Origin: Yimella lutea
GTDB lineage: Bacteria; Actinomycetota; Actinomycetes; Actinomycetales; Dermatophilaceae
Reading direction: 5' to 3'
DNA length: 64,000 nucleotides
NCBI RefSeq assembly: GCF_006715095.1
Contig: NZ_VFMO01000001.1
Span: 1,488,001-1,552,000, forward strand
Each line of letters opens with the position of its first letter. Position 1 is the stretch's first letter. The notes below the pieces were generated by a model. The model did not search any database and had not been told where the DNA came from. It saw nothing but the letters and a program-made list of their open reading frames with translations. Below, one piece after another: positions 947 through 51,472 of the stretch. The position numbers were made by a program, and so were the translations under genes.

Positions 947-3157
947 ATGTCCGACGCCCCGTCCAGCACGCTCATCGACCTCGCCCGCGCCTACGGCGTC
1001 GCCACCGACTACTGGGACTGGAAGGGCAACCACGTCCAGGTGTCCGCCCACACCATCAGCACCGTGCTGAGCGTGTTCGACGTGGACGCATCCGACGAAC
1101 AGTCCGCCCGGGCAGCGCTTGCCCAGCGCGAACTCGAGCCGTGGCGCCGCGTCGTCCCACGTGTGATCGTCCTGCGCGAAGGCTGGACGCCGTGGGTCGC
1201 GTTGCATGCAGCCGACGGGGCGCCCAGCGAGGCAAGGCTGCGGTTGGAGGACGGGCGCACTCGAGAGGTCGCCGTCGTCGAACGGTTCGTCGAACCGCGC
1301 GAGATCGACGGCGAGATGGTCGCCGAGACCACGATCGAACTGCCCGGCGACCTGCCGCTCGGTTATCACGAACTGATCGTGTCGGTCGGACAGAAGCCGG
1401 TGGACGACGCAGCGCCCGCCGCGGAGTCCGTAGCGACGACCGACGGGGCGAAGGCCACACCCCGCCCGACGCAGGAGCACCGCGCGCCGGTGATCGTGAC
1501 GCCGGAGAAGGTCAGCCTGCCGGCCGCGCTGGAGAACGACAGCGTGTGGGGTCTGATGACCCAGCTGTACACCGTGCGTTCCGAGCGTTCGTGGGGCATC
1601 GGCGACGCCGCCGACCTCGCCGAACTCGGTACCTGGGGCGCTCGCCAGGGTGCCGACTTCGCACTGATCAACCCGGTGCACGCCGCCGAACCGGTCGCGA
1701 CGATGGAGCCCTCGCCGTACCTGCCGACCTCGCGCCGCTTCGTCAACCCGATGTACATCCGGGTCGAGGAAGTACCGGAGATCGGTTACCTGTCCGCAGC
1801 CGAACACCAACTCGTGGAGTGGCACAGCGACGACGCCCGCCGGTTGAACAAGCTCGCTCAGCTCGACCGTGACGGCTCCTGGGAGGCCAAGCGGGCCGCC
1901 CTGCGGATGATCTTCCGTACCGAACGCACGCACCGCCGCGCTCGCGAGTTCGAGGAGTTCGTGACCCGCGAGGGCCAGGGCCTCATCGATTTCGCCACCT
2001 GGTCGGCCATCGTCGTCGACCGCGGGTTGCCCTGGGAGACATGGCCGCAGGAGCTACGCGACCCACGCAGCGAGGCCGTTGCTGCCGAGCGGGAACGTCT
2101 GGCCGACGAGGTCGAGTTCCAGTGCTGGTTGCAGTGGATCGTGCAGAGCCAGTTGACCGATGCCCAGCGGGAACTGCGCGCCGCCGGCATGGGTGTCGGC
2201 GTCGTCCACGACCTCGCAGTCGGCGTGCACCCCGGTGGCGCGGACGCCTGGGCGCTCGGAGACGTGCTCGCCCACCAGGTGAGCGTCGGCGCCCCGCCGG
2301 ACGACTACAACCAGATGGGGCAGGACTGGAGCCAGCCGCCGTGGCGCCCGGACCGCCTGGCCGAACTCGGGTACGCGCCGTTCCGCGACATGCTTCGCAC
2401 CGTGCTGCGCATGGCAGGCGGCATCCGCGTCGACCACATCCTCGGACTCTTCCGTCTGTGGTGGGTGCCGCGCGGGGAGTCCCCGAAGAACGGCACCTAC
2501 GTGCGCTACGACCACGAGGCGATGGTCGGCATCCTGGCGCTCGAGGCCCAGCGCGCCGGCGCCGTCGTGATCGGCGAAGACCTCGGCACGGTCGAGGACT
2601 GGGTCCGTGACTACCTGCTGGAGCGCGGCCTGCTCGGCACGTCGATCCTGTGGTTCGAGCGCAAGGACGGCTCCGCTCCGCGTGCCCCCGAGACCTATCG
2701 GTCGCTGTGCCTGGCGAGCGTCACCACGCACGACCTGCCGCCCACCGCCGGGTACCTGCAGGGAGAGCACATCGCGGTGCGTCACGAACTTGGTCTGCTC
2801 ACTCGTCCGTTGGAGGAGGAGATCGCCGAGGACGACGCTCAGCGCGAGGCAGTGCTGTCGGAGTTGCGCGAGCGGGGTCTGCTCAAGGAGAAGGCCGGCA
2901 TCGAGGAGCAGGTCGACGCCCTGCACAAGTACCTCGCATGGGCACCGAGCAAGATGCTCGGAGTCTCGGTGAACGACCTGGTCGGTGACGTGCGCACGAT
3001 CAACCAGCCGGGTACCGACGAGGAGTACCCGAACTGGCGTCTGCCTCTTGCAGACGGCAACCACAAGCTGGTCACGCTGGACGAGGTGATGATCAGTCGT
3101 CGCGCCAAGCGACTGATCCGATGCGTGAACCACCGCGACGCCGAGCCGCAGAACTGA
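947..3157 (+). CDS. malQ: 4-alpha-glucanotransferase (amylomaltase)
   Basis: MalQ transfers alpha-1,4-glucan segments between maltodextrins in cytoplasmic maltose/glycogen metabolism. The 736-residue product has the N-terminal beta-rich extension common in actinobacterial MalQ (about residues 1-190) followed by a GH77 barrel. Visible GH77 signatures include SPYLPTSRRFVNPMYI, GMGVGVVHDLAVGVHPGGAD, a substrate-loop region around PPDDYNQMGQDW, GGIRVDHILGLFRLWWVP (nucleophile Asp region), VIGEDLGTV (acid/base Glu region) and SVTTHDLPPTAGY. The ATG at 947 is preferred over upstream in-frame starts because the protein then begins where the family does and a -10-like GAAACT lies seven bases upstream. 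It stands alone, ended by a strong hairpin shared with pepN. Confidence 0.95.
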   Translation: MSDAPSSTLIDLARAYGVATDYWDWKGNHVQVSAHTISTVLSVFDVDASDEQSARAALAQRELEPWRRVVPRVIVLREGWTPWVALHAADGAPSEARLRLEDGRTREVAVVERFVEPREIDGEMVAETTIELPGDLPLGYHELIVSVGQKPVDDAAPAAESVATTDGAKATPRPTQEHRAPVIVTPEKVSLPAALENDSVWGLMTQLYTVRSERSWGIGDAADLAELGTWGARQGADFALINPVHAAEPVATMEPSPYLPTSRRFVNPMYIRVEEVPEIGYLSAAEHQLVEWHSDDARRLNKLAQLDRDGSWEAKRAALRMIFRTERTHRRAREFEEFVTREGQGLIDFATWSAIVVDRGLPWETWPQELRDPRSEAVAAERERLADEVEFQCWLQWIVQSQLTDAQRELRAAGMGVGVVHDLAVGVHPGGADAWALGDVLAHQVSVGAPPDDYNQMGQDWSQPPWRPDRLAELGYAPFRDMLRTVLRMAGGIRVDHILGLFRLWWVPRGESPKNGTYVRYDHEAMVGILALEAQRAGAVVIGEDLGTVEDWVRDYLLERGLLGTSILWFERKDGSAPRAPETYRSLCLASVTTHDLPPTAGYLQGEHIAVRHELGLLTRPLEEEIAEDDAQREAVLSELRERGLLKEKAGIEEQVDALHKYLAWAPSKMLGVSVNDLVGDVRTINQPGTDEEYPNWRLPLADGNHKLVTLDEVMISRRAKRLIRCVNHRDAEPQN

Positions 3158-3158
3158 C

Positions 3159-3212
3159 CGCACGAAACGCACGGCCCCGCTCCGATCGGAGCGGGGCCGT
3201 GCGTTTCGTGCG
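3159..3212. terminator. Bidirectional terminator between malQ and pepN
   Basis: A perfect 54-base palindrome (27-base arms meeting at 3185/3186) lies just after the malQ stop and just beyond the convergent pepN stop. The arms start CGCACGAAACGC and are very GC-rich at the centre. There is no clear T-tract, but the position between convergent genes makes a two-way terminator the likely role. Confidence 0.85.
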
Positions 3213-3217
3213 ATGGA

Positions 3218-5791
3218 TCAGAGCGTAGCGTCGTATGCCTGCGCGGTGAGGGCCCGCTGGACGTCGTCGCGGTGCTCGGTCACCACACGCACCAGACCGG
3301 CCGGCGCGGACGCGTTCTCGTCCAGCCATTGCTGAGCTGCACCGAGCAGATCCGGCGAGGTCAGCGACACCGGGAACGCCAGGTTGGCGATGCTCTGACC
3401 GATGTGGAACGTTCGGTCTGCCCACATCGAAGTCAGCATGGCGAAGTACTTGTCCGCATAGGGGGCGAGCAGTTGCCGGTCGTGCACCCGCTGCAGACCC
3501 TTGCCGATCGCCTCGATCGTTTGGTTGGGCAGACCCGGAGTCTCGACCAGCTTGCTCCACGCCTCGGCCTTCGCCTCGGGGGTGGGCAGCGCCGCCCGCA
3601 CGAGGGCGGCCCGTTCCTTGCCGCTGGCGGTCGCGTCCTTCTGCTCCTCGGCGGCGATCTCGTCCTCCTGCGCGGCCCCTGCGGCGGCGAGTGACGTGAG
3701 CAACGACCAGCGCAGATCCTGGTCGATCGCCAGGCCCTCGAACGACTCCTGACCCGACAGCAGACCTCGCACCAACGCGACATCGTCCTTGGTGGACGCG
3801 TACGCGGCGAACGCCTCGGTGAGCTGCAACTGGGCGTCCGAACCAGGAGCTGCCTGGGACGCGGCCTCGCGCAACGTGGCGGTGACGTGCGCACGCACCT
3901 CGTCCTGCGCGTCCGGGCTGATGTACAGCTCGGTCAGCTGGCGCAGCACGGTGAGCATCATCCGCAGGATTCCCGAGTGGGTCTCCTTGCCGACGAGCAC
4001 CTGGAGCACCGAGACGAGGTCGCGGCCACGCAGCTGCGCATCACGCGTCATGTCCCACAGGGCACCCAGCACGAGCGCGCGGGGGAGTGAGTCGAACCCT
4101 TCGGGCTGCTCGATCACCGCCGCCATCGACGCGTCGTCCAGGCGGATCTTGGCATAGGCCAGGTCGTCGTCGTTGAGCAGGATCACGCCGGGATGCGTCG
4201 TGCCGACGAGTGCGTCGACGCTCGTGCTCGCGCCGTCCACGTCAACCTCGACGCGGTTGGTACGAACCCACGAATCGCCCTGGCGCTCATAGCAACCCAC
4301 AGCGAGGCGGTGCGGGCGCAGTGTCGGGAGCTCCTCGGTGGCCGTCTGCTCGATGACGAAGGACGAGATCGTGCCGTCGTCGCCCGTCTCCAGCTTCGGA
4401 GTGAGGGTGTTGACGCCCGCGGTCTCCAGCCAGAGCGCCGACCACGCCTTCAGGTCGCGGCCGGAGGCGTCCGCAAGTTCTGTCAGCAGGTCGGGCAGGG
4501 TCGTGTTGCCCCACGCGTACTTGGCGAAATAGGAGCGCAGACCCTGCACGAACCGGTCGCGGCCGACGTACGCGACGAGTTGCTTCAGCACGGACGCACC
4601 CTTGGCGTAGGTGATGCCGTCGAAGTTGGACTCGACGTCCTCGAGGTCGCCGATGTCGGCGACGATCGGGTGGGTGGAGCTCAGCTGGTCCTGGTTGTAG
4701 GCCCAGGTCTTCTCCAAGATCGAGAAGGTCGTCCAGGCCTCGTCCCATTCGGTCGCTTCCGCCTGGCAGACGGTGGACGCCCACTCGGCGAACGACTCGT
4801 TGAGCCACAGGTCGTTCCACCACTTCATGGTGACCAGGTCGCCGAACCACATGTGCGCGAGTTCGTGCAGGATCGTGAGCGCGCGGCGTTCGATCTTCGC
4901 GTCCGAGACCTTCGAACGGAAGATGTAGATCTCGTTGAAGGTCACGCAGCCGGCGTTCTCCATCGCCCCCGCGTTGTATTCGGGGGTGAAGATCTGGTCG
5001 TACTTCTCGAACGGGTACTCGCAGTCGAACTCGTTCTCGAAGAACTCGAATCCGCGTTTGGTGCAGTCGAACACGTTGTCGGAGTCGAGGAACTCGCTCA
5101 ACGACCTGCGGCAGTAGATCGCCAGCGGCACCTCGCCGCGACGGGTCGAGACGCTGTCGCGGACGACGTCGTACGGGCCTGCGACGAGCGCAGTGATGTA
5201 GGACGACATGACCGGGGTGGCCCCGAACGACCAGGTTGCGGTCGGGCGCTCGTTGCCGGAAGGGTCGCGCCAGGTGTGCTCGGCGGGCTGCGGTTCGGGG
5301 GTCGGCTGGTTGGAGACGATCTGCCAATGGGCGGGCGCGGTGACGGTGAAGCGGAACGTGGCCTTGAGGTCGGGCTGATCCCACACGGCGAACATCCGGC
5401 GGCAGTCGGCGACCTCGAACTGGCTGTAGAGGTAGACCTCGTTGTCGACCGGGTCGACGAAACGGTGCAGGCCCTCACCGGTGTTCATGTAGGTGCCGGT
5501 GCCTTCGACCCGCAGCCGGTTCTCGCCGGAGCGCACCGTCAACGCGATGCGCGCACCGTCGTAACTGCCGGCGGCGTCGAGCGATTCGCCGTTGAGTTCG
5601 AGGCCGGTGACGGTGCCGTCGACGAAGTCGATGAAGGTGTCGCCGTCCTGCTCGGCGGTGAAGACCACCTCGGTGACGGATCCGAACGTTTTCTCCTCGC
5701 TCGTCAGATCGAGGGTCACGTCATAGGACGCGACGTCGATCAGTGTCGAGCGGCCCTCGGCCTCGGTACGGGTCAGGTTGGTGGTTGCCAC
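3218..5791 (-). CDS. pepN: Aminopeptidase N (M1 zinc metallopeptidase)
   Basis: PepN removes N-terminal residues from peptides in the cytoplasm. The 857-residue protein has the M1 exopeptidase motif GAMEN (in YNAGAMENAGCV) and the zinc site HELAH at 309-313 with the third ligand Glu332 in NESFAEW, matching HExxH-x18-E. An ERAP1-like C-terminal helical domain follows. Length fits actinobacterial PepN (about 850). The GTG at 5791 is chosen because AAGGAG lies seven bases upstream and the protein then begins ATTNLTRTEA as in relatives; the frame stays open further upstream, but that extension reads as antisense of the next gene. No signal peptide. It is divergent from the DsbA-fold gene. Confidence 0.95.
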   Translation of the reverse strand: MATTNLTRTEAEGRSTLIDVASYDVTLDLTSEEKTFGSVTEVVFTAEQDGDTFIDFVDGTVTGLELNGESLDAAGSYDGARIALTVRSGENRLRVEGTGTYMNTGEGLHRFVDPVDNEVYLYSQFEVADCRRMFAVWDQPDLKATFRFTVTAPAHWQIVSNQPTPEPQPAEHTWRDPSGNERPTATWSFGATPVMSSYITALVAGPYDVVRDSVSTRRGEVPLAIYCRRSLSEFLDSDNVFDCTKRGFEFFENEFDCEYPFEKYDQIFTPEYNAGAMENAGCVTFNEIYIFRSKVSDAKIERRALTILHELAHMWFGDLVTMKWWNDLWLNESFAEWASTVCQAEATEWDEAWTTFSILEKTWAYNQDQLSSTHPIVADIGDLEDVESNFDGITYAKGASVLKQLVAYVGRDRFVQGLRSYFAKYAWGNTTLPDLLTELADASGRDLKAWSALWLETAGVNTLTPKLETGDDGTISSFVIEQTATEELPTLRPHRLAVGCYERQGDSWVRTNRVEVDVDGASTSVDALVGTTHPGVILLNDDDLAYAKIRLDDASMAAVIEQPEGFDSLPRALVLGALWDMTRDAQLRGRDLVSVLQVLVGKETHSGILRMMLTVLRQLTELYISPDAQDEVRAHVTATLREAASQAAPGSDAQLQLTEAFAAYASTKDDVALVRGLLSGQESFEGLAIDQDLRWSLLTSLAAAGAAQEDEIAAEEQKDATASGKERAALVRAALPTPEAKAEAWSKLVETPGLPNQTIEAIGKGLQRVHDRQLLAPYADKYFAMLTSMWADRTFHIGQSIANLAFPVSLTSPDLLGAAQQWLDENASAPAGLVRVVTEHRDDVQRALTAQAYDATL

Positions 5792-40175: not shown

Positions 40176-40221
40176 GTTCGCGATGTGCAGGGTGGTTCAT
40201 GGGCTCGGCACGGGCGAGTAG

Positions 40222-40345
40222 AGTGATGCTGCGCATCAGTGGGGGGAAAGCCGGTCCAAGTCCGGCGCTGACCCGCAACCGTAGGTTCCTCGGCAACGAG
40301 GAACGAGCCGGAGCTCCTTAGCCGATGTCAGCTCACATCCCCGTC
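40222..40345 (+). promoter_or_regulatory. Cobalamin riboswitch
   Basis: The stretch contains the conserved cobalamin aptamer core: GGGGGAAAGCCGG, then CCAAGTCCGGCGCTGACCCG with CAACCGT (the B12 box region), followed by GAGCCGGAG and GCCGATGTCA. Downstream, CGCCGA/TCGGCG (around 40363-40380) can form a hairpin in the expression platform, and a GGAAGAAGGA ribosome site precedes the first gene, so control may be translational. The 238 bases between PBP2 and the next gene are almost all riboswitch. It should switch the five-gene B12 uptake operon off when cobalamin is plentiful. Confidence 0.93.
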
Positions 40346-40413
40346 GAGGTCTACGGGCGAGCGCCGAACCTCTTTCGGCGGCCCGCGCCCAGGGCCGTCT
40401 GGAAGAAGGAACC

Positions 40414-41766
40414 ATGACTCTCCTCACCACCGCCCGTGCGGGTTTCGCGGGCACCGCGACCCTTGCCGCATTTGCGCTCGCCATCGCGCCGGCCCACGCC
40501 GCCACCACCCCTGATGACGCCGCGTCCGCCTTCATGGCGGGCCAGCTCGCCGCGAAGGGCAACTACCTGAACGCCGAGTTCGGTGGCGAGAGCTACCCGG
40601 ACTACGGCCTCACGATCGACGCTCTGCTCGGTGTTGCCGGTACCGGCACCGGCACGGCGCAGATCTCCAAGACCGCCGACTGGTTGGTCGCCAACGGCAC
40701 CTCGTACTACGGAGCCGGTTCCGAGGCGTATGCCGGGTCGCTTGCCAAGCAGGTCGTGATGCTGCAGGCCACCGGCCGTCCCTCCGGCGCCCTGCTGACC
40801 AAGCTCAAGAGCATGCAGACCGCCGCGGGTCGTTTCAGCGACAAGTCCGAGTACGGCGATTACTCCAACACGATCGGCCAGTCGTGGGCCTTGATCGCGC
40901 TCAAGCGTTCCGGTGAGGCGGTCCCGACCAAGGCGATCGACTTCCTGGTCGCGCAGCAGTGCGCCGACGGTGGCTTCCGTCTCGAACTCGGCGCAGCGAA
41001 GTGCACCAGTGACTCCGATGTGACCTCGTTCGCCGTGCAGGCTCTCGCGGCCAACGGCCGCACAACCGCGGTGTCGAAGGCCGCCGGCTACCTGGCCACG
41101 CAGCAGGTCGCATCGGGTGGAGTGCGCGGTGGCACCTCGACCGAGAGCCCCAACTCCAACAGCGCCGGACTTGCCGCCGTGGCCTTCACCCTGGCCGGCC
41201 GCACCGACAACGCGGCGAAGGCGAAGGCCTTCGTGAAGACGCTCCAGTTCGGCTGCTCGGCGCCCGCTGCGCTGCGCGGTGCGATCGCCTACGACAAGCC
41301 GGCGTTCGATGCGAAGATCGCCGCCGGCTCCCGCGCGGTGGTCACCGACCAGGAGACGCGCGCGACCCCGCAGGCGATGCTGGCGCTCACCCTCACGCCC
41401 TACGTCCGGACCATTGCGGGCGGCTCCGCCGGTGTCGCGGCACTGGACTGCGGAACGAACCCGACCTCGTCTCCCACGGCTACGGCTTCGCCGAGTTCGA
41501 CCTCGAGCCCGTCGAGCTCGACATCCACCACGACGTCCAGCACGACATCCAGCACGACATCCAGCACGACGACGACCTCGGCCGGTACTGCGACCACGTC
41601 CTCGACCATGTCCTCGACCACGTCGATCGTCACCGGTCCGCCGGTTGTCACCGACGGTCCGACCTCCTCCGACGGTGGAGCGGACCTCGGCGTGCTGGCC
41701 GGCGTCGGCGCGTTCTTCGCAAGCATCGGTGCGGGGGCAGTGGCTCATGGCCGTCGTCGTCGCTGA
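40414..41766 (+). CDS. Secreted alpha/alpha-barrel protein, transcobalamin-like first half of a B12 capture system
   Basis: The 450-residue protein has a signal peptide ending near APAHA-ATTPDD (cleavage after about 29), then a prenyltransferase/squalene-cyclase-type alpha/alpha repeat domain (about 30-345) with repeated motifs such as FLVAQQCADGGFRLELGAA, DVTSFAVQALAANG and YLATQQVASGGVRGG. A Ser/Thr-rich linker (about 348-416) and a C-terminal helix with RRRR anchor it to the membrane. No cyclase catalytic aspartates are evident, so binding is more likely than catalysis. This fold is the N-terminal domain of intrinsic factor and transcobalamin, and the next gene supplies their C-terminal domain type. 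The cobalamin riboswitch supports a B12 role. Confidence 0.8.
   Translation: MTLLTTARAGFAGTATLAAFALAIAPAHAATTPDDAASAFMAGQLAAKGNYLNAEFGGESYPDYGLTIDALLGVAGTGTGTAQISKTADWLVANGTSYYGAGSEAYAGSLAKQVVMLQATGRPSGALLTKLKSMQTAAGRFSDKSEYGDYSNTIGQSWALIALKRSGEAVPTKAIDFLVAQQCADGGFRLELGAAKCTSDSDVTSFAVQALAANGRTTAVSKAAGYLATQQVASGGVRGGTSTESPNSNSAGLAAVAFTLAGRTDNAAKAKAFVKTLQFGCSAPAALRGAIAYDKPAFDAKIAAGSRAVVTDQETRATPQAMLALTLTPYVRTIAGGSAGVAALDCGTNPTSSPTATASPSSTSSPSSSTSTTTSSTTSSTTSSTTTTSAGTATTSSTMSSTTSIVTGPPVVTDGPTSSDGGADLGVLAGVGAFFASIGAGAVAHGRRRR
41529..41570 (+). repeat. 12-base tandem repeat in the Ser/Thr linker
   Basis: Three and a half copies of CACGACRTCCAG occur back to back (41529-41540, 41541-41552, 41553-41564 and a half copy). 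They encode a Thr-Thr-Ser-Ser pattern in the wall-spanning linker. The unit is a multiple of three, so slippage would change linker length without breaking the frame. Confidence 0.85.
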
Positions 41767-42799
41767 TTCCCGTACGCGGGTCTGGGTGCGACTGTTGGCT
41801 GCGTTCACGCTCGCATTCGCTCTCATCGGCGTCGCTCCTGCACATGGGCAGGCAAGCAGCTCGGTGCGGACCGCCGCTGCGAGTTGCTCGGGTGTGACCG
41901 TGGTCGTGCAGTACACCGGGGGAGCCAGCACCCGCTGCGCCCCGGGCTCCTACGGTTCCGCGCTCGATGCATTGCGCGCGGCGGGACACACCCCGCAGCG
42001 GGCGCAACTGCAGCCCGGCTACTTCCTGTGCCGGATCGACGGCAACCCGACCTCCGACCCGTGTATGCGCACTGCTCCGGCCAGCGCCTACTGGGCCTTC
42101 TTCCACGGTCGCGCGGGCTCGGGGTGGACCTACTCCAACACCGGCGTCGCCACGTTCTCGGCTCCGGCCGGCACCTGGATCGGCTTCCGGTTCGGGTCCG
42201 GGGGAGCGCCCTCGGTGGTGCCCTCGGCGCCGAAACCGACCGCCACCCCGACGCAGACTCCGCGACCGAGCACCACGGCGCCGCGGCCGTCGAGCACGTC
42301 GACCAGCAGTTCGACGAGCAGGCCGACGAGCAGGCCGACAAGCACTGCGCCCCGTCCGTCGTCGAACGCGGCACGTCCGACGTCGGGTTCGAAATCGTCG
42401 TCGACCTCGGGCCGGCCGGCGGGAACGCAGCCGAGCTCGACAGCGTCCGGGGCCTCGCCGAAGCAGAGTGCTTCGGCGTCCTCGAGCGCTTCGAAGAGTG
42501 CTGCGGCACAGTCGAATTCACCCAAAGGATCCACGTCGGCGACGGCGAGTTCGAGTGCCGCTGACAAGACGTCCGCGGCCAGTGCGCAGCCGTCATCGGC
42601 TGCCTCGACGCAGGCCCCGGCCACCTCCAGCGTCGATGGCCCGGCGGCGACTGGGCAGCGCACCGAGGTCGCGGCCTCGCAGCGCACGAACTCCGGTGGC
42701 GGCGGCACGAACCTCGGCCTGTTGATCGGCGGTGGTGCCACGGTCGCGCTCGCCGGCCTGGCGGGCGTGCTGGCGCTGCGCCGTCGACCGCAGGAGTGA
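41747..42799 (+). CDS. Secreted DUF4430 protein, transcobalamin-like second half of a B12 capture system
   Basis: The 350-residue protein has its own signal peptide (VWVRLLAAFTLAFALIGVAPAHG), a DUF4430 domain (about 47-151; VTVVVQYTGG, GSALDALRAAGH, YFLCRIDGNPTSDPC, AYWAFFHGRAGSGWTYSNTG, WIGFRFGSGG), a 160-residue Ser/Thr/Pro/Ala linker, and a C-terminal helix with LRRRPQE. DUF4430 is the domain type that closes over the ligand in intrinsic factor/transcobalamin. The ATG at 41747 lies 20 bases inside the preceding gene; GTG 41788 is an alternative. It overlaps the EcfT start by four bases. Confidence 0.82.
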   Translation: MAVVVADSRTRVWVRLLAAFTLAFALIGVAPAHGQASSSVRTAAASCSGVTVVVQYTGGASTRCAPGSYGSALDALRAAGHTPQRAQLQPGYFLCRIDGNPTSDPCMRTAPASAYWAFFHGRAGSGWTYSNTGVATFSAPAGTWIGFRFGSGGAPSVVPSAPKPTATPTQTPRPSTTAPRPSSTSTSSSTSRPTSRPTSTAPRPSSNAARPTSGSKSSSTSGRPAGTQPSSTASGASPKQSASASSSASKSAAAQSNSPKGSTSATASSSAADKTSAASAQPSSAASTQAPATSSVDGPAATGQRTEVAASQRTNSGGGGTNLGLLIGGGATVALAGLAGVLALRRRPQE

Positions 42800-43947
42800 G
42801 CACACCGGGTCGGTCGTCGGCCCAGGCTGCCCGGTTCGTACACCCGGGCGCCTGGTGGCTGTGGGCATGCTGCCTCGCGGCAGCGGTCACCCGCACGACC
42901 AACCCGGTGCTCCTGCTCCTGGCCCTCACCGTCGTCGTCCTCGTCGTGATCGCGCGCCGTCCGGACGCACCGTGGGCGAGATCGTTCACGATGTACGCCT
43001 GGCTGGGACTGTTCGTCATCGTCACCCGCATGGTGCTGTTCGTGCTGATCGGATCCAAGGCCGGCCCGACGATCCTGGTGACCCTGCCGACGGTCGACCT
43101 TCCGTCCTGGGCTGCGGGTATCCAGTTGCTCGGCCCGATCCCGCTGGAAGACCTCATCGCGGCATTGTGTGAAGGCCTGCGCCTGGCGACCATGTTGCTC
43201 TGCTTCGGCGCCGCCAACGCGCTCGCCAACCCGCGGCGTCTGCTGCGCGCGCTGCCCGCTGCCGTCCGGGACATCGGCACCGCGGTCGTCATCGCGCTCA
43301 CCGTCGTCCCGCAACTGGCCGAGAGCGCCAAGCGTGTGGCCCGGGCGCGAGAACTTCGCGGGACCTCGGTCAAGGGGGTGCGTGCCCTGCGCGTGATCGC
43401 GCTCCCGGTCCTGCAGGACACCCTCGACCGTTCGTTGTTGCTGGCTGCCTCGATGGACTCACGCGGGTTCGGCACCCGCCTCTCGGTGAGCCATCGTGAC
43501 CGCCGCCTCATCGGAGTGCTGTCGCTCGGCGGGCTGATGGCGGTGTGTGTCGGGCTCTACGGACTGCTCGACGATCGCGGTGACCAGGCCATCCCGCTGT
43601 GGGCGACGGTCGCGACAGTGGCCGGCCTCGTGCTCGGCGCGCTCGCGGTCTGGTGGGGCGGACGTCGAGTGCCGCGTTCGGTGTACCGGTCGGATCCGTG
43701 GAAGTCCGCCGAGACGATCGTGTCGCTGTGCGGGGTCACCGCTCTGGTCGCGATGATCGTTGCGCTGGAACGAAACCCGCTCGCGACGATCATGCCGCTC
43801 GAGCCGACCCTCGGCACCCCGCTCGTGCCGCTCACTGCGGTGCTCGGGCTGCTCGTGGCGGCGTTGCCGGCCTTCGTCACCCCGCCGCTGCCGCCCAAAC
43901 CCAAGCGGGGACCCCGACAGAACCAGCAGATGCAGGAGATCTCATGA
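42796..43947 (+). CDS. ECF transporter T component (CbiQ/EcfT family)
   Basis: EcfT is the membrane scaffold linking the substrate-binding S component to the ATPases. The 383-residue protein has an N-terminal membrane part (about 20-120), the two coupling-helix motifs RARELRG (about 190) and AASMDSRGFG (about 225), and additional C-terminal helices (about 240-370) beyond the usual EcfT length. The GTG overlaps the DUF4430 stop and the stop overlaps the ATPase start. The extended C terminus is common in actinobacterial EcfT. Confidence 0.9.
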   Translation: MSTPGRSSAQAARFVHPGAWWLWACCLAAAVTRTTNPVLLLLALTVVVLVVIARRPDAPWARSFTMYAWLGLFVIVTRMVLFVLIGSKAGPTILVTLPTVDLPSWAAGIQLLGPIPLEDLIAALCEGLRLATMLLCFGAANALANPRRLLRALPAAVRDIGTAVVIALTVVPQLAESAKRVARARELRGTSVKGVRALRVIALPVLQDTLDRSLLLAASMDSRGFGTRLSVSHRDRRLIGVLSLGGLMAVCVGLYGLLDDRGDQAIPLWATVATVAGLVLGALAVWWGGRRVPRSVYRSDPWKSAETIVSLCGVTALVAMIVALERNPLATIMPLEPTLGTPLVPLTAVLGLLVAALPAFVTPPLPPKPKRGPRQNQQMQEIS

Positions 43948-45572
43948 GCTTCCCGGCGATCGAGTTCGACCGCGTCACCATCACCTACGCCGACGAACCC
44001 ACACCCGCAGTACGCGATGTGAGCATCGAACTGGAGCAAGGTGAACTCGCGGTGCTCGTCGGACGCACCGGGTCGGGCAAGTCGACGCTGCTCGGCGCGA
44101 TCAACGGACTCGTGCCGCACTTCACCGGCGGACTGCTCACCGGGCACGTGCGGGTACACGGACGTGATACCCGCGACCATCTGCCGCGGGAGATGGCCGA
44201 CCTCATCGGGTATGTCGGGCAGGACCCGCTCGCGGGGTTCGTCACCGACACCGTCGAGGAGGAACTCGCCTACGCGATGGAGCAATTCGGCATCCCGCAG
44301 CAGGTGATGCGCAAGCGCGTCGAGGAGACGCTCGACCTGCTCGGCATCGCCGACCTGCGGCATCTGGCGCTGCGTGACCTGTCCGGGGGACAGCAACAAC
44401 GTGTCGCCATCGGCAGCGTGCTGACCCTGCAGCCCCAGGTGCTCGTGCTCGACGAACCGACCTCCGCGCTCGACCCCACCGGAGCCGAGGACGTGCTGGC
44501 GACGATCACCCGGCTGGTGCACGACCTGTCGGTCACGGTTGTCATGGCCGAGCACCGCATCGAGCGCGTGCTGCAGTACGCCGACACGCTCATCCACGTC
44601 ACGCGGGACGGGCTGGTCGAGGTGGGGGAGCCCGCCGAGATCATGCGCACCGCCACGGTCGCGCCGCCCGTCGTCGAACTCGGACGTGACCAGGGCTGGT
44701 CACCCTTGCCGCTGTCGGTGCGGGACGCGCGGCGCAAAGCACGCGGACTGCACACCGAACTCGAACAACACGACGACCTGGAGCCACCCGCGAACCTCAC
44801 CAGCGGTCCGGTCGCCCTGCGTGCCAAGGGAATTCGCGTCACCTACGGCGACTTCACCGCGGTGAACGATGTTGACCTGGAACTGCGTCGAGGCGGCATC
44901 ACCGCACTCATGGGGCGTAACGGGTGCGGCAAGTCCACGCTGATGTGGGCGCTGCAGGGAGCCACCCGTCCGGCGTCCGGCACGGTGACTGTCGACGCCG
45001 ACGGAACGTGGGTCGAACCGTCCAAGATCGCTGTGCCGCAACGCCGCTCGCGTGTCGGGTTGGTGCCGCAGAGTGCGAGTGACCTGCTCTATCTCGACAC
45101 GGTCTGCGCTGAGTGCACTCAGGCGGACGCCGAGAGCGACGCACCGTCGGGCACCTGCGAGCGCCTGCTGCGCGAGATGGTGCCCGACATCGTCCTCGAC
45201 CGGCACCCGCGCGACCTTTCCGAAGGTCAGCGCCTGGCTCTCGTGCTCGCCGTCCAATTGACCGCCCGACCCTCGGTCGTGCTGCTGGACGAACCCACGC
45301 GCGGCCTCGACTACGCCGCCAAGGCGGCCCTGCGCGCGACGCTGCGGACGTGCGCCGATCGTGGCCAGGCCGTACTCGTGTCCAGCCACGATGTCGAGTT
45401 CATCGCCGAAACGGCCGACGACGTGATCTTCATGGCCGATGGCGACGTGGTCGCGTCCGGAACGACCTCGGACGTACTGCTCGGCTCGCCTGCGTTCGCG
45501 CCTCAGATGGCCAAGATCCTGGCGCCGTTGCCGTTGCTGACCGTCGACCAGGTCAGGCGCGCGCGCTCATGA
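43944..45572 (+). CDS. ECF transporter fused double ATPase (EcfA-EcfA')
   Basis: The 542-residue protein is two ABC ATPase domains in one chain. The first (about 5-250) has Walker A GRTGSGKST, signature LSGGQQQRV, Walker B LVLDEPTSALD and switch His in MAEHRIERV. The second (about 305-530) has GRNGCGKST, LSEGQRLAL, VVLLDEPTRGLD and SSHDVEF. Fusion makes the EcfA/EcfA' heterodimer intramolecular. It overlaps the T component and S component genes by four bases each. Confidence 0.93.
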   Translation: MSFPAIEFDRVTITYADEPTPAVRDVSIELEQGELAVLVGRTGSGKSTLLGAINGLVPHFTGGLLTGHVRVHGRDTRDHLPREMADLIGYVGQDPLAGFVTDTVEEELAYAMEQFGIPQQVMRKRVEETLDLLGIADLRHLALRDLSGGQQQRVAIGSVLTLQPQVLVLDEPTSALDPTGAEDVLATITRLVHDLSVTVVMAEHRIERVLQYADTLIHVTRDGLVEVGEPAEIMRTATVAPPVVELGRDQGWSPLPLSVRDARRKARGLHTELEQHDDLEPPANLTSGPVALRAKGIRVTYGDFTAVNDVDLELRRGGITALMGRNGCGKSTLMWALQGATRPASGTVTVDADGTWVEPSKIAVPQRRSRVGLVPQSASDLLYLDTVCAECTQADAESDAPSGTCERLLREMVPDIVLDRHPRDLSEGQRLALVLAVQLTARPSVVLLDEPTRGLDYAAKAALRATLRTCADRGQAVLVSSHDVEFIAETADDVIFMADGDVVASGTTSDVLLGSPAFAPQMAKILAPLPLLTVDQVRRARS

Positions 45573-46393
45573 CGGCCACCACCACGCATGTACCCAGCGG
45601 TCGGGCGAAGGCGATCCCGTTGCGTCCGCGCTCCGCGCTCGCGATCGCGCTGGTCAGCATCGTGGGCGTGATCGGGTTCGCGTGGCCGTTGTTCATCACG
45701 GCCGACTCGACGCTCGCCTCGCACACCAATGATGCTCCGTTGCTGTTCGCACTGATGCTCCCGCTCCTGCTGGCGGTCGTGTTGTCGGAGGTGAGCGAGG
45801 GCGGCATCGACTCCAAAGCGATCGCGATGCTCGGTGTGCTGTCGGCCGTCGACGCGATGATGCGGCCGCTCGGCGCCGGCACCGGGGGCATCGAGGTGAT
45901 GTTCTTCCTGCTGGTGCTGTCCGGACGGGTCTTCGGCGCCGGCTTCGGCTTCGTCCTCGGATGTACGAGCATGTTCGCCTCGGCGATCCTCACCGCGGGC
46001 ATCGGTCCCTGGCTGCCCTTCCAGATGCTAGGGGCGGGGTGGATCGCGCTCGGCGCCGGTCTGCTGCCACCGCTGCGCGGACGGGCGGAGATCTTCATGC
46101 TGATCGGCTACGGAATCATCTCCAGCCTGCTGTACGGCTGGATCCTGAACTTCTATTTCTGGCCCCTCGGCACGACCGGGGAGCCCGCGATCTCGGTCGT
46201 TCCCGGTGGTCCGCTGCTGACCAACCTCAAGCACTTCCTGGCGTTCAACCTGGCCACGTCCCTCGGCTGGGACCTCGGCCGCGCGATCACCACGTCCGTC
46301 CTGATCGCCATCACCGGACGTCCGATCCTGCTCACCCTGCGTCGCGCGTCCCGCAAGGCAGCATTCGGTCGACCGACGAGCCTCGCCGATTAG
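45569..46393 (+). CDS. ECF transporter S component, predicted cobalamin-specific
   Basis: The 274-residue protein has six or seven membrane helices and a basic C-terminal tail, as in long actinobacterial S components. Motifs include GGIDSKAIAMLGVLSAVDAMMRPLGAGTGGIE and FGAGFGFVLGCTSMFASAIL. It resembles the CbrT group predicted for cobalamin. The specificity assignment rests on the upstream cobalamin riboswitch and the transcobalamin-like partners rather than on a proven residue signature. It is the last gene of the operon; rpsO follows after 122 bases. Confidence 0.85.
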   Translation: MTATTTHVPSGRAKAIPLRPRSALAIALVSIVGVIGFAWPLFITADSTLASHTNDAPLLFALMLPLLLAVVLSEVSEGGIDSKAIAMLGVLSAVDAMMRPLGAGTGGIEVMFFLLVLSGRVFGAGFGFVLGCTSMFASAILTAGIGPWLPFQMLGAGWIALGAGLLPPLRGRAEIFMLIGYGIISSLLYGWILNFYFWPLGTTGEPAISVVPGGPLLTNLKHFLAFNLATSLGWDLGRAITTSVLIAITGRPILLTLRRASRKAAFGRPTSLAD

Positions 46394-50428: not shown

Positions 50429-51472
50429 ATGAAGGCTTTCGGTTTCTTGAGTTTCGGCCACTACGGCTTCTCCGGCTACGAAGCCCGCGAGATGTTGCAG
50501 CAGGCCGTGCAGTTGTCGGTCGGTGCCGACGCGATCGGCGTCAACGGCGCGTACTTTCGCGTGCACCACTTCGCCAAGCAGGCGGCGTCCCCGATGCCCC
50601 TGCTGAGCGCCATTGCTGCGCGCACCGACAACATCGAGGTGGGCACCGGCGTCGTCGACATGCGCTACGAGAACCCGCTCTACCTCGCGGAGGAAGCGGC
50701 GGCCCTGGACCTGCTGTCGGACGGCCGGGTGGCGCTGGGCGTGAGTCGTGGGTCACCCGAACCGGCGCTGCGCGGCTGGGAGGCGTTCGGGTACACCGGT
50801 TCCGCCGACCCCCGCGGCGCCGACATCGCGCGTCCGAAGTTCGAACGTTTCATGGACGCCGTACGTGGCGTGCCGGTGGCCGACGCCGACCCGGCCCAGT
50901 TCGGTCCCGGCCAGAAGTTGCGCATCGAACCGCACGCACCGGGGCTGGACCGTCGGATCTGGTGGGGAGCGGGTAGCCGTGACACCGCCGAGTGGGCTGC
51001 GGCACAGGGCGTGAACCTGATGAGTTCCACCCTGCTCACCGAGGCCACCGGCCAGGCGTTCGGTGACCTGCAGGCGGAGCAGATCGATCGCTACCGCACT
51101 GCGTGGAAGGCCGCCGGGCACGACTGGACGCCGAGAGTCTCGGTGAGCCGCAGCGTCTTTCCGTTGATGAACGCGCAGGACCAGATGTACTTCGGTCTGC
51201 GATCGGGCGACAGCGCCGACCAGGTCGGTGTGATCGACGGCTTCCGCTCGACGTTCGGCAAGACCTACGCCGCCGAGCCGGACGTGCTCATCGAACAATT
51301 GCGCGACGACGCGGCGGTGATGTCGGCCGACACCCTGATGTTGACCATCCCGGCTCAGCTGGGCGTCGAGTACAACCTGCACGTGCTGCGTTCGTTCGCC
51401 GAACATGTCGCGCCGGCGCTCGGGTGGAAGCCGAACACCGACGGTCCGGTGCAGGGCGATCCGATCGGCTGA
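50429..51472 (+). CDS. Luciferase-like (LLM-class) flavin-dependent oxidoreductase
   Basis: The 347-residue protein has the bacterial luciferase-like TIM barrel: MKAFGFLSFGHYGFSGYEAR, YFRVHHFAKQAASPMPLLSAIAART, IEVGTGVVDMRYENPLYLAEEAAALDLLS (split by short loops), RVALGVSRGSPEPA and RIWWGAGSRDTAEWAA. These enzymes use FMN or F420; the substrate is unknown. The start at 50429 gives the family N terminus; an open frame upstream lacks family sequence. It stands alone. Confidence 0.9.
   Translation: MKAFGFLSFGHYGFSGYEAREMLQQAVQLSVGADAIGVNGAYFRVHHFAKQAASPMPLLSAIAARTDNIEVGTGVVDMRYENPLYLAEEAAALDLLSDGRVALGVSRGSPEPALRGWEAFGYTGSADPRGADIARPKFERFMDAVRGVPVADADPAQFGPGQKLRIEPHAPGLDRRIWWGAGSRDTAEWAAAQGVNLMSSTLLTEATGQAFGDLQAEQIDRYRTAWKAAGHDWTPRVSVSRSVFPLMNAQDQMYFGLRSGDSADQVGVIDGFRSTFGKTYAAEPDVLIEQLRDDAAVMSADTLMLTIPAQLGVEYNLHVLRSFAEHVAPALGWKPNTDGPVQGDPIG

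Follow-up and report, generated by a model that had tools for sequence, protein, structure and literature searches.

A riboswitch-preceded operon of Yimella lutea with a predicted two-chain relative of animal B12 carriers and an energy-coupling factor importer

The window analyzed here is a stretch of 64,000 nucleotides from Yimella lutea, corresponding to positions 1488001-1552000 of its genome, a single contig of 3.53 Mb. Within it, a compact riboswitch is followed by five genes, P1 to P5, which probably (we put this at about 0.68) constitute a cobalamin-controlled corrinoid uptake operon, the beta domain of P2 and the barrel of P1 clamping the ligand and delivering it to the S component of an energy-coupling factor (ECF) importer. 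P1 and P2 thereby seem to be a testable cousin of the animal B12 carriers, in which the two halves of the clamp are located on separate membrane-tethered chains.

Operon organization

The following features were assigned.

40228..40317, + strand, compact cobalamin riboswitch aptamer in the operon leader (Rfam RF00174 below threshold; family covariance model)
40414..41766, + strand, P1, secreted tail-anchored alpha/alpha-toroid protein, SCO2321-like (NCBIfam; Prenyltrans; model of a relative)
41747..42799, + strand, P2, secreted and tail-anchored, carrying a beta domain of the transcobalamin type (41849-42226 modelled)
42796..43947, + strand, P3, EcfT-like transmembrane subunit (Pfam CbiQ)
43944..45572, + strand, P4, fused EcfA-EcfA' ATPase (Pfam ABC_tran twice; NCBIfam ECF_ATPase_2 below cut-off)
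45569..46393, + strand, P5, ECF S component (matches of the aligned family)

The five overlapping genes described in an initial annotation were confirmed by these coordinates, with successive overlaps of 20, 4, 4, and 4 nt. Relatives were taken as the best 80 of at least 484 confirmed S-component stretches. Seven of these 80 loci had no EcfT match and 14 started too near a contig edge, resulting in 59 loci testable for the riboswitch; gene order was counted in the 60 loci that have EcfT with over 2.5 kb of upstream sequence. A beta domain was located at most 1.8 kb before EcfT in 58/60 loci, five of these being partial matches of 39-50 bits, and a toroid was present in the locus in 52/60. The exact order of the window (riboswitch, toroid, beta, EcfT, EcfAA', S) was found in 8 other loci. 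Because of this conserved order, with the beta domain just before EcfT, and because of the placement of the riboswitch, the operon is unlikely to be a chance arrangement.

The closest named relatives at the locus are Actinobacteria. Judging from the translations, the upstream neighbor is presumably penicillin-binding-protein-like and the downstream pair presumably rpsO/pnp-like.

The capture proteins P1 and P2

Both proteins have a hydrophobic N-terminus and end in a hydrophobic stretch followed by Arg. The linker in between comprises 65 amino acids with 72% Ser plus Thr in P1 and 150 amino acids with 44% in P2, using boundaries chosen by us. Signal peptides, Ser/Thr linkers, and C-terminal anchors, as initially annotated, are thus borne out by the sequence. 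An L[AP]xTG motif occurs in neither P1 nor P2, and the anchors therefore look like membrane tails. Among the open frames first labelled toroid (L008-L087), 21/71 end with a membrane tail and L[AP]xTG, compared with 2/91 of those labelled beta; some toroid relatives may be sortase-anchored, unlike P1 and P2.

Three alignments were used for the family searches: A1 (beta domain; 58/60 relatives plus the window), A2 (toroid; 38/68 non-redundant relatives plus the window, those left out being mostly tandem-toroid copies), and A3 (S component; all 38 relatives plus the window). P2 had been described as carrying a DUF4430 domain, which holds as a relation at the level of the fold and fails at that of the sequence. 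P2 itself matched no Pfam family, including DUF4430 (PF14478); this family was matched by only 1/59 aligned beta sequences, at E 0.15, and a DUF4430 search of the own genome gave no match. As DUF4430 offered no sequence handle, fold comparison was used in its place, and the modelled stretch was predicted to adopt the transcobalamin beta fold. P2 matched the SCO2322 family (NCBIfam NF040672) at 0.0045, under the curated cut-off. A direct search of P2 against solved chains gave no match at E <= 1. When the beta-domain profile was searched against solved sequences, the best 60 of 69 matches contained antibody chains only (best E 0.012, judged chance) and no transcobalamin.

P1 matched SCO2321_fam (NCBIfam NF053823) at 3.7e-22, under the curated cut-off, and its mature domain (40498-41463) matched the Prenyltrans toroid at 0.0067; 31/39 aligned sequences also matched this toroid family. 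No match of P1 to Pfam PF01122 was found at the curated cut-off; 8/39 aligned toroid sequences matched this family weakly (best 0.0081). A direct search of P1 against solved chains likewise gave no match at E <= 1. The alpha/alpha barrel was seen in the structure model of a relative, L072, rather than in P1 itself, which aligns to L072 over 294 residues. This relative was picked for its alignment depth and has the order beta-toroid, the reverse of animal transcobalamin, whose order is found in L011. Its model was based on alignment A5 (24 rows: 8 fused, 16 toroid-only). Two mixed alignments were discarded because toroid-only rows spilled into the beta domain, A4 and also A6, in which 14-22 residues of every such row were affected. 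The transcobalamin alpha domain is not the closest fold to the L072 barrel, and the same table contains many unrelated enzymes sharing this fold; transcobalamin is missing from the 50 rows of the comparison, which is not evidence against a relation. The proposal of an alpha/alpha barrel in P1 is accordingly supported through L072, though this fold is not peculiar to transcobalamin, and of the two transcobalamin domains initially proposed the beta fold was recovered while the toroid was not specifically transcobalamin-like.

DxDD is the catalytic motif of class II terpene cyclases. It was present in 0/39 toroid sequences, 32 of which have DxD without the last Asp, and P1 as a terpene cyclase was set aside.

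In six loci, the two parts of the toroid profile matched in swapped order (second part first), and the beta matches of these loci are partial. The swap resembles what a circular permutation of the barrel, or a shift in the register of its repeats, would produce. The swapped-order toroids are located as follows.

L060, 3503-4477
L062, 3604-4518
L064, 868-1773
L067, 3644-4588
L073, 3016-3942
L076, 797-1741

The ECF importer

P3 matched Pfam CbiQ with 27.7 bits (cut-off 25). P4 matched Pfam ABC_tran in two stretches (178.5 bits) and NCBIfam ECF_ATPase_2 at 4.8e-87, under its cut-off. P5 alone matched no Pfam family, and TIGR04518 only at 0.13. In its aligned family, PF12822 was matched by 24/39 sequences (best 1.8e-12), PF07155 by 21/39, and TIGR04518 by 35/39. 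The annotation of EcfT, a fused EcfA-EcfA', and an S component was upheld by these matches. One operon thus encodes an EcfT, a pair of EcfA domains, and an S component, as in an ECF transporter with a dedicated module (group I type). A profile of the 39 S components, searched against solved sequences, gave only one 30-residue peptide (E 3.5) and no solved S component, inclusion of CbrT in that set being unconfirmed. A cobalt importer was considered and set aside, as a CbiM-type S component is encoded separately, within the cob cluster of the genome.

The riboswitch

RF00174 matched 40250-40313 with 25.2 bits (E 1.3e-4; 401 bases scanned), not reaching the Rfam gathering score of 31.5 bits. With a covariance model built from 13 relatives, the window being excluded, the site scored 79.5 bits (E 1.5e-15), and the next match in the window 21.4 bits. 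The cobalamin riboswitch of the initial annotation is therefore clear in the leave-window-out model, though it stays below the Rfam threshold. Separately, 51186-51263 on the - strand of the window matched the riboswitch models weakly (21.2 and 21.4 bits), probably by chance.

Seeds were found by pattern. A first hand-written pattern recovered 1/73 loci and not the site of the window itself; a second recovered 15/57 loci and also gave 9 matches at other places in 917 kb, and 13 of its 15 loci served as seeds, L060 and L073 being left out. Across 14 leaders including the window, the conserved core has 39 invariant columns, some of this invariance reflecting selection because the seed-picking pattern fixes part of the core. 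Consensus pairs were kept in 99.0% of cells, in the same 14-sequence alignment from which the secondary structure was derived. Of 15 pairs, 11 are invariant and 3 changed on both sides, all within one helix. None of 500 shuffles reached the observed values for paired cells, for doubly changed cells, or for the covariation score, while the counts of doubly changed pairs (68/500 shuffles) and of pair types (115/500) do not stand out. As a single strand, the leader (40228-40416) is only moderately more stable than shuffles (z -1.87).

A covariance model of all 14 leaders, R1, was used for the following counts. In the window and the 80 loci, R1 matched 88 sites at E <= 0.1. The loci contain 73 sites of at least 50 bits, each preceding a toroid, beta, or EcfT gene and none elsewhere; 54 are located within 900 bases before the first detected gene of the operon and 19 are located 135-342 bases before further toroid or beta domains. 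A riboswitch precedes the operon in 56/59 testable loci, that is, in 43/46 loci independent of the model and in the 13/13 model-building loci, which carry it by construction. Two of the 43 independent sites are weak, one scoring 28.0 bits and the other, truncated at a contig end, 32.5 bits. The three misses are L066, L070, and L083; the second toroid gene of L066 has a riboswitch.

In the own genome, the next-best R1 sites (41.5 and 35.8 bits) both coincide with Rfam cobalamin riboswitches. When eight loci were scanned with Rfam, 7/13 R1 sites of at least 50 bits passed the RF00174 threshold; RF00174 under-scores the compact subtype, the other 6/13 sites falling below the gathering score. Among the matches listed, 50/50 genomes have some cobalamin riboswitch match, 48 of them over the cut-off.

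Each of the satellite toroid or beta genes near but outside the operon is equipped with a separate copy of the compact cobalamin riboswitch, which suggests that the capture modules are interchangeable. These satellite genes are located as follows.

L017, 14671-15870
L018, 8912-10085
L024, 8930-10106
L035, 8806-10130
L080, 8890-10004
L082, 8929-9626

Fusions and distribution

One-chain fusions of toroid and beta domain occur in both orders (8 open frames in the 80 loci and 3 in 30 further loci). The order toroid-beta is found in L011, with a 3-residue gap, and in L048; beta-toroid is found in L010, L016, L043, L044, L059, and L072 and in the further loci L092, L110, and L111. In the window the two domains are encoded by two genes, in contrast to the one-chain, alpha-before-beta arrangement of the transcobalamin family; L011 (3730-5088) has the latter form. 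Two full toroids in one frame were found in 18 loci. The two-chain form is thus one of several arrangements in the family. Because natural relatives fuse both domains on one chain, toroid and beta domain would be expected to act together, and the fusions are the best indirect evidence arguing for such joint action. In L048, a single open frame (2764-5223) encodes a toroid, a hydrophobic anchor, a sequence resembling a second signal, and a beta domain; it appears to have arisen from two complete tail-anchored genes by fusion.

Distribution was determined in 394 genomes of the window's class, and as few candidates were scored per genome, the counts are lower bounds. The S component was found in at least 209/394 genomes (E <= 1e-20), the beta domain in at least 136/394 (E <= 1e-5), and the toroid in at least 144/394 (E <= 1e-10); the fused L072 query alone found 113/394. 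An S component is present in 139/144 toroid-positive and 130/136 beta-positive genomes, compared with 209/394 overall. Of the 209 genomes with an S component, 166 have at least one of the two domains, 103 both, and 43 neither, while 9/185 genomes without it have a toroid or beta domain. Because the genomes are related, the very small Fisher values cannot be read as if they came from independent events. In a congener (G305), two stretches, C1:853592-860121 and C1:2049028-2056884, contain two S-component, three toroid, and two beta matches, and the operon seems duplicated.

B12 metabolism of the host

A corrin cluster is located at 503-522 kb, with matches over the cut-offs for CobN, CobBC, CbiE/T, CobI/J, and CbiM and a cobaltochelatase match just under the cut-off. 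Three cobalamin riboswitches passing Rfam are located nearby. Of the B12 users, MetH and a mutase C-domain were over the cut-off, and IcmF, on a truncated fragment, matched below it. Given this corrin synthesis cluster in the host, B12 capture is probably a supplement or salvage route. A further protein of the own genome with a B12-binding domain (L121; G000:C1:598317-598592) has a CarH-like match under the family cut-off.

Discussion

The proposed operon would work as follows. When cobalamin is scarce, the operon would be expressed. The beta domain of P2, held outside the membrane on a flexible stalk, would bind the corrinoid first, and the P1 barrel would then shut on the bound ligand, which would thereby bring the two chains together. 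Once loaded, the pair would concentrate B12 at the membrane and release it to the S component, import being powered with ATP by EcfT and EcfAA'. Delivery from P1 and P2 to the S component is what we infer from this arrangement. Separately made human transcobalamin beta and alpha domains, the latter with CD320, co-elute only with cobalamin according to PMC5599065, which cites the same ligand-dependent co-elution for intrinsic factor. Because separate human halves behave in this way, a split clamp is physically reasonable and, by analogy, two chains can be mechanically sufficient. A broader claim is advanced tentatively, at somewhat less than even odds: the two chains, toroid and beta, each on a flexible membrane stalk of its own, would meet only if bridged by a corrinoid and then dock on the S component, giving an ECF importer with a dedicated extracellular clamp, widespread in the class, and the shuffling of domains (split, alpha-beta, beta-alpha, double toroid) would preserve the intermediate kinds from which intrinsic-factor-like one-chain carriers could have arisen.

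P2 alone might catch the corrinoid for the importer, P1 being an accessory (a spacer, a second weaker binder, or a conditional partner) and no clamp being formed. The beta domain is indeed the more constant partner before EcfT, and 8/60 loci lack a toroid within the stretch read; moreover, in rat transcobalamin it is the beta domain that offers the ligand its most favorable interface (PMC11107200), and the human beta domain was crystallised alone with cyanocobalamin (PMC5599065). This explanation is nevertheless considered unlikely, since toroid and beta domain are repeatedly fused in either order and satellite toroid genes have their own riboswitch copy, the toroid thus appearing to be under the same selection. 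Another proposal keeps the clamp and changes its ligand to another corrinoid, such as cobinamide or another cobamide to salvage, in place of complete cobalamin. The corrin synthesis cluster of the host, which may make the importer one for salvage, the transport of cobinamide by ECF-CbrT (PMC5997447), and the binding of cobinamide by the human beta domain (PMC5599065) are in line with it, while a riboswitch of the cobalamin type suggests that cobalamin is the end product under control and leaves the imported form undefined; we regard it as improbable.

Even less credit is given to an importer acting alone like ECF-CbrT, with P1 and P2 serving to store B12, to sense it, or to deny it to neighbors. 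ECF-CbrT takes cobalamin into proteoliposomes without an extracellular binder (PMC5997447), 43/209 S-component genomes show neither domain, and further toroid and beta genes lie outside the operon; against this stand the tight gene overlaps and the near-constant beta domain before EcfT. That P1 is an extracellular enzyme with a terpene-cyclase barrel, and no ligand-binding half, is hardly to be expected, given the missing DxDD in 39/39 sequences, the signal peptides, and control by a cobalamin-type riboswitch, the barrel fold itself being common to many unrelated enzymes.

A two-chain clamp would resemble animal transcobalamin, intrinsic factor, and haptocorrin in the fold of its beta domain and its alpha/alpha barrel partner, with B12 as the putative ligand. 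It differs from them in that P1 and P2 are two separate tail-anchored chains without a match to PF01122 or PF14478 at the cut-offs, and in that the toroid barrel, as modelled for L072, is not closest to the transcobalamin alpha domain. Among bacteria, Burroughs et al. (2007; PMC1796856) predicted secreted toroid and beta-grasp surface proteins, encoded in operons with CbiO/CbiQ, for B12 scavenging, and also cell-surface complexes of more than one such protein, in a clade comprising low-GC Gram-positives and planctomycetes and, more rarely, euryarchaea. The proteins described here share with these the secreted toroid and beta-grasp domains, the CbiO-like ATPase, and the CbiQ-like permease, and they differ in belonging to a divergent actinobacterial branch, in having the halves on separate chains, and in being preceded by a compact cobalamin riboswitch. 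Furthermore, the carriers in PMC1796856 usually are without key B12 enzymes, whereas the present host has a corrin cluster.

ECF-CbrT of Lactobacillus delbrueckii is likewise an ECF importer, shown there to transport cobalamin; its cluster nrdJ-cbrS-cbrT-pduO has no surface capture protein named in the available part of PMC5997447. Similarly, a riboswitch-preceded ECF module of acI Actinobacteria was proposed as a cobalamin transporter in strains without a B12 pathway, capture proteins being unmentioned in the available part of PMC5301498. ECF importers in general are described as capturing their substrate via membrane proteins (PMC2667541), and the available parts of PMC3766115, PMC2667541, and PMC4350170 make no mention of these toroid/beta proteins. 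No publication on an actinobacterial toroid/beta pair was found among the matches listed, which are mostly without subscription journals, so that the pair may be described elsewhere. The SCO2321 and SCO2322 families (NF053823 and NF040672), matched by P1 and P2 below cut-offs, have names that state no function.

The general idea of a B12 scavenger is already in print since 2007. As far as the literature searches show, the actinobacterial branch missed by Pfam, the split two-chain form, and the control of operon and satellites by a compact riboswitch are new. If true, a riboswitch-controlled, intrinsic-factor-like capture pair would change the view of how a large bacterial group acquires B12 at low levels, and it would suggest a function for two NCBIfam families named by locus tag only. 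With the natural split and fused versions it would, moreover, become possible to test how the vertebrate B12 carriers arose.

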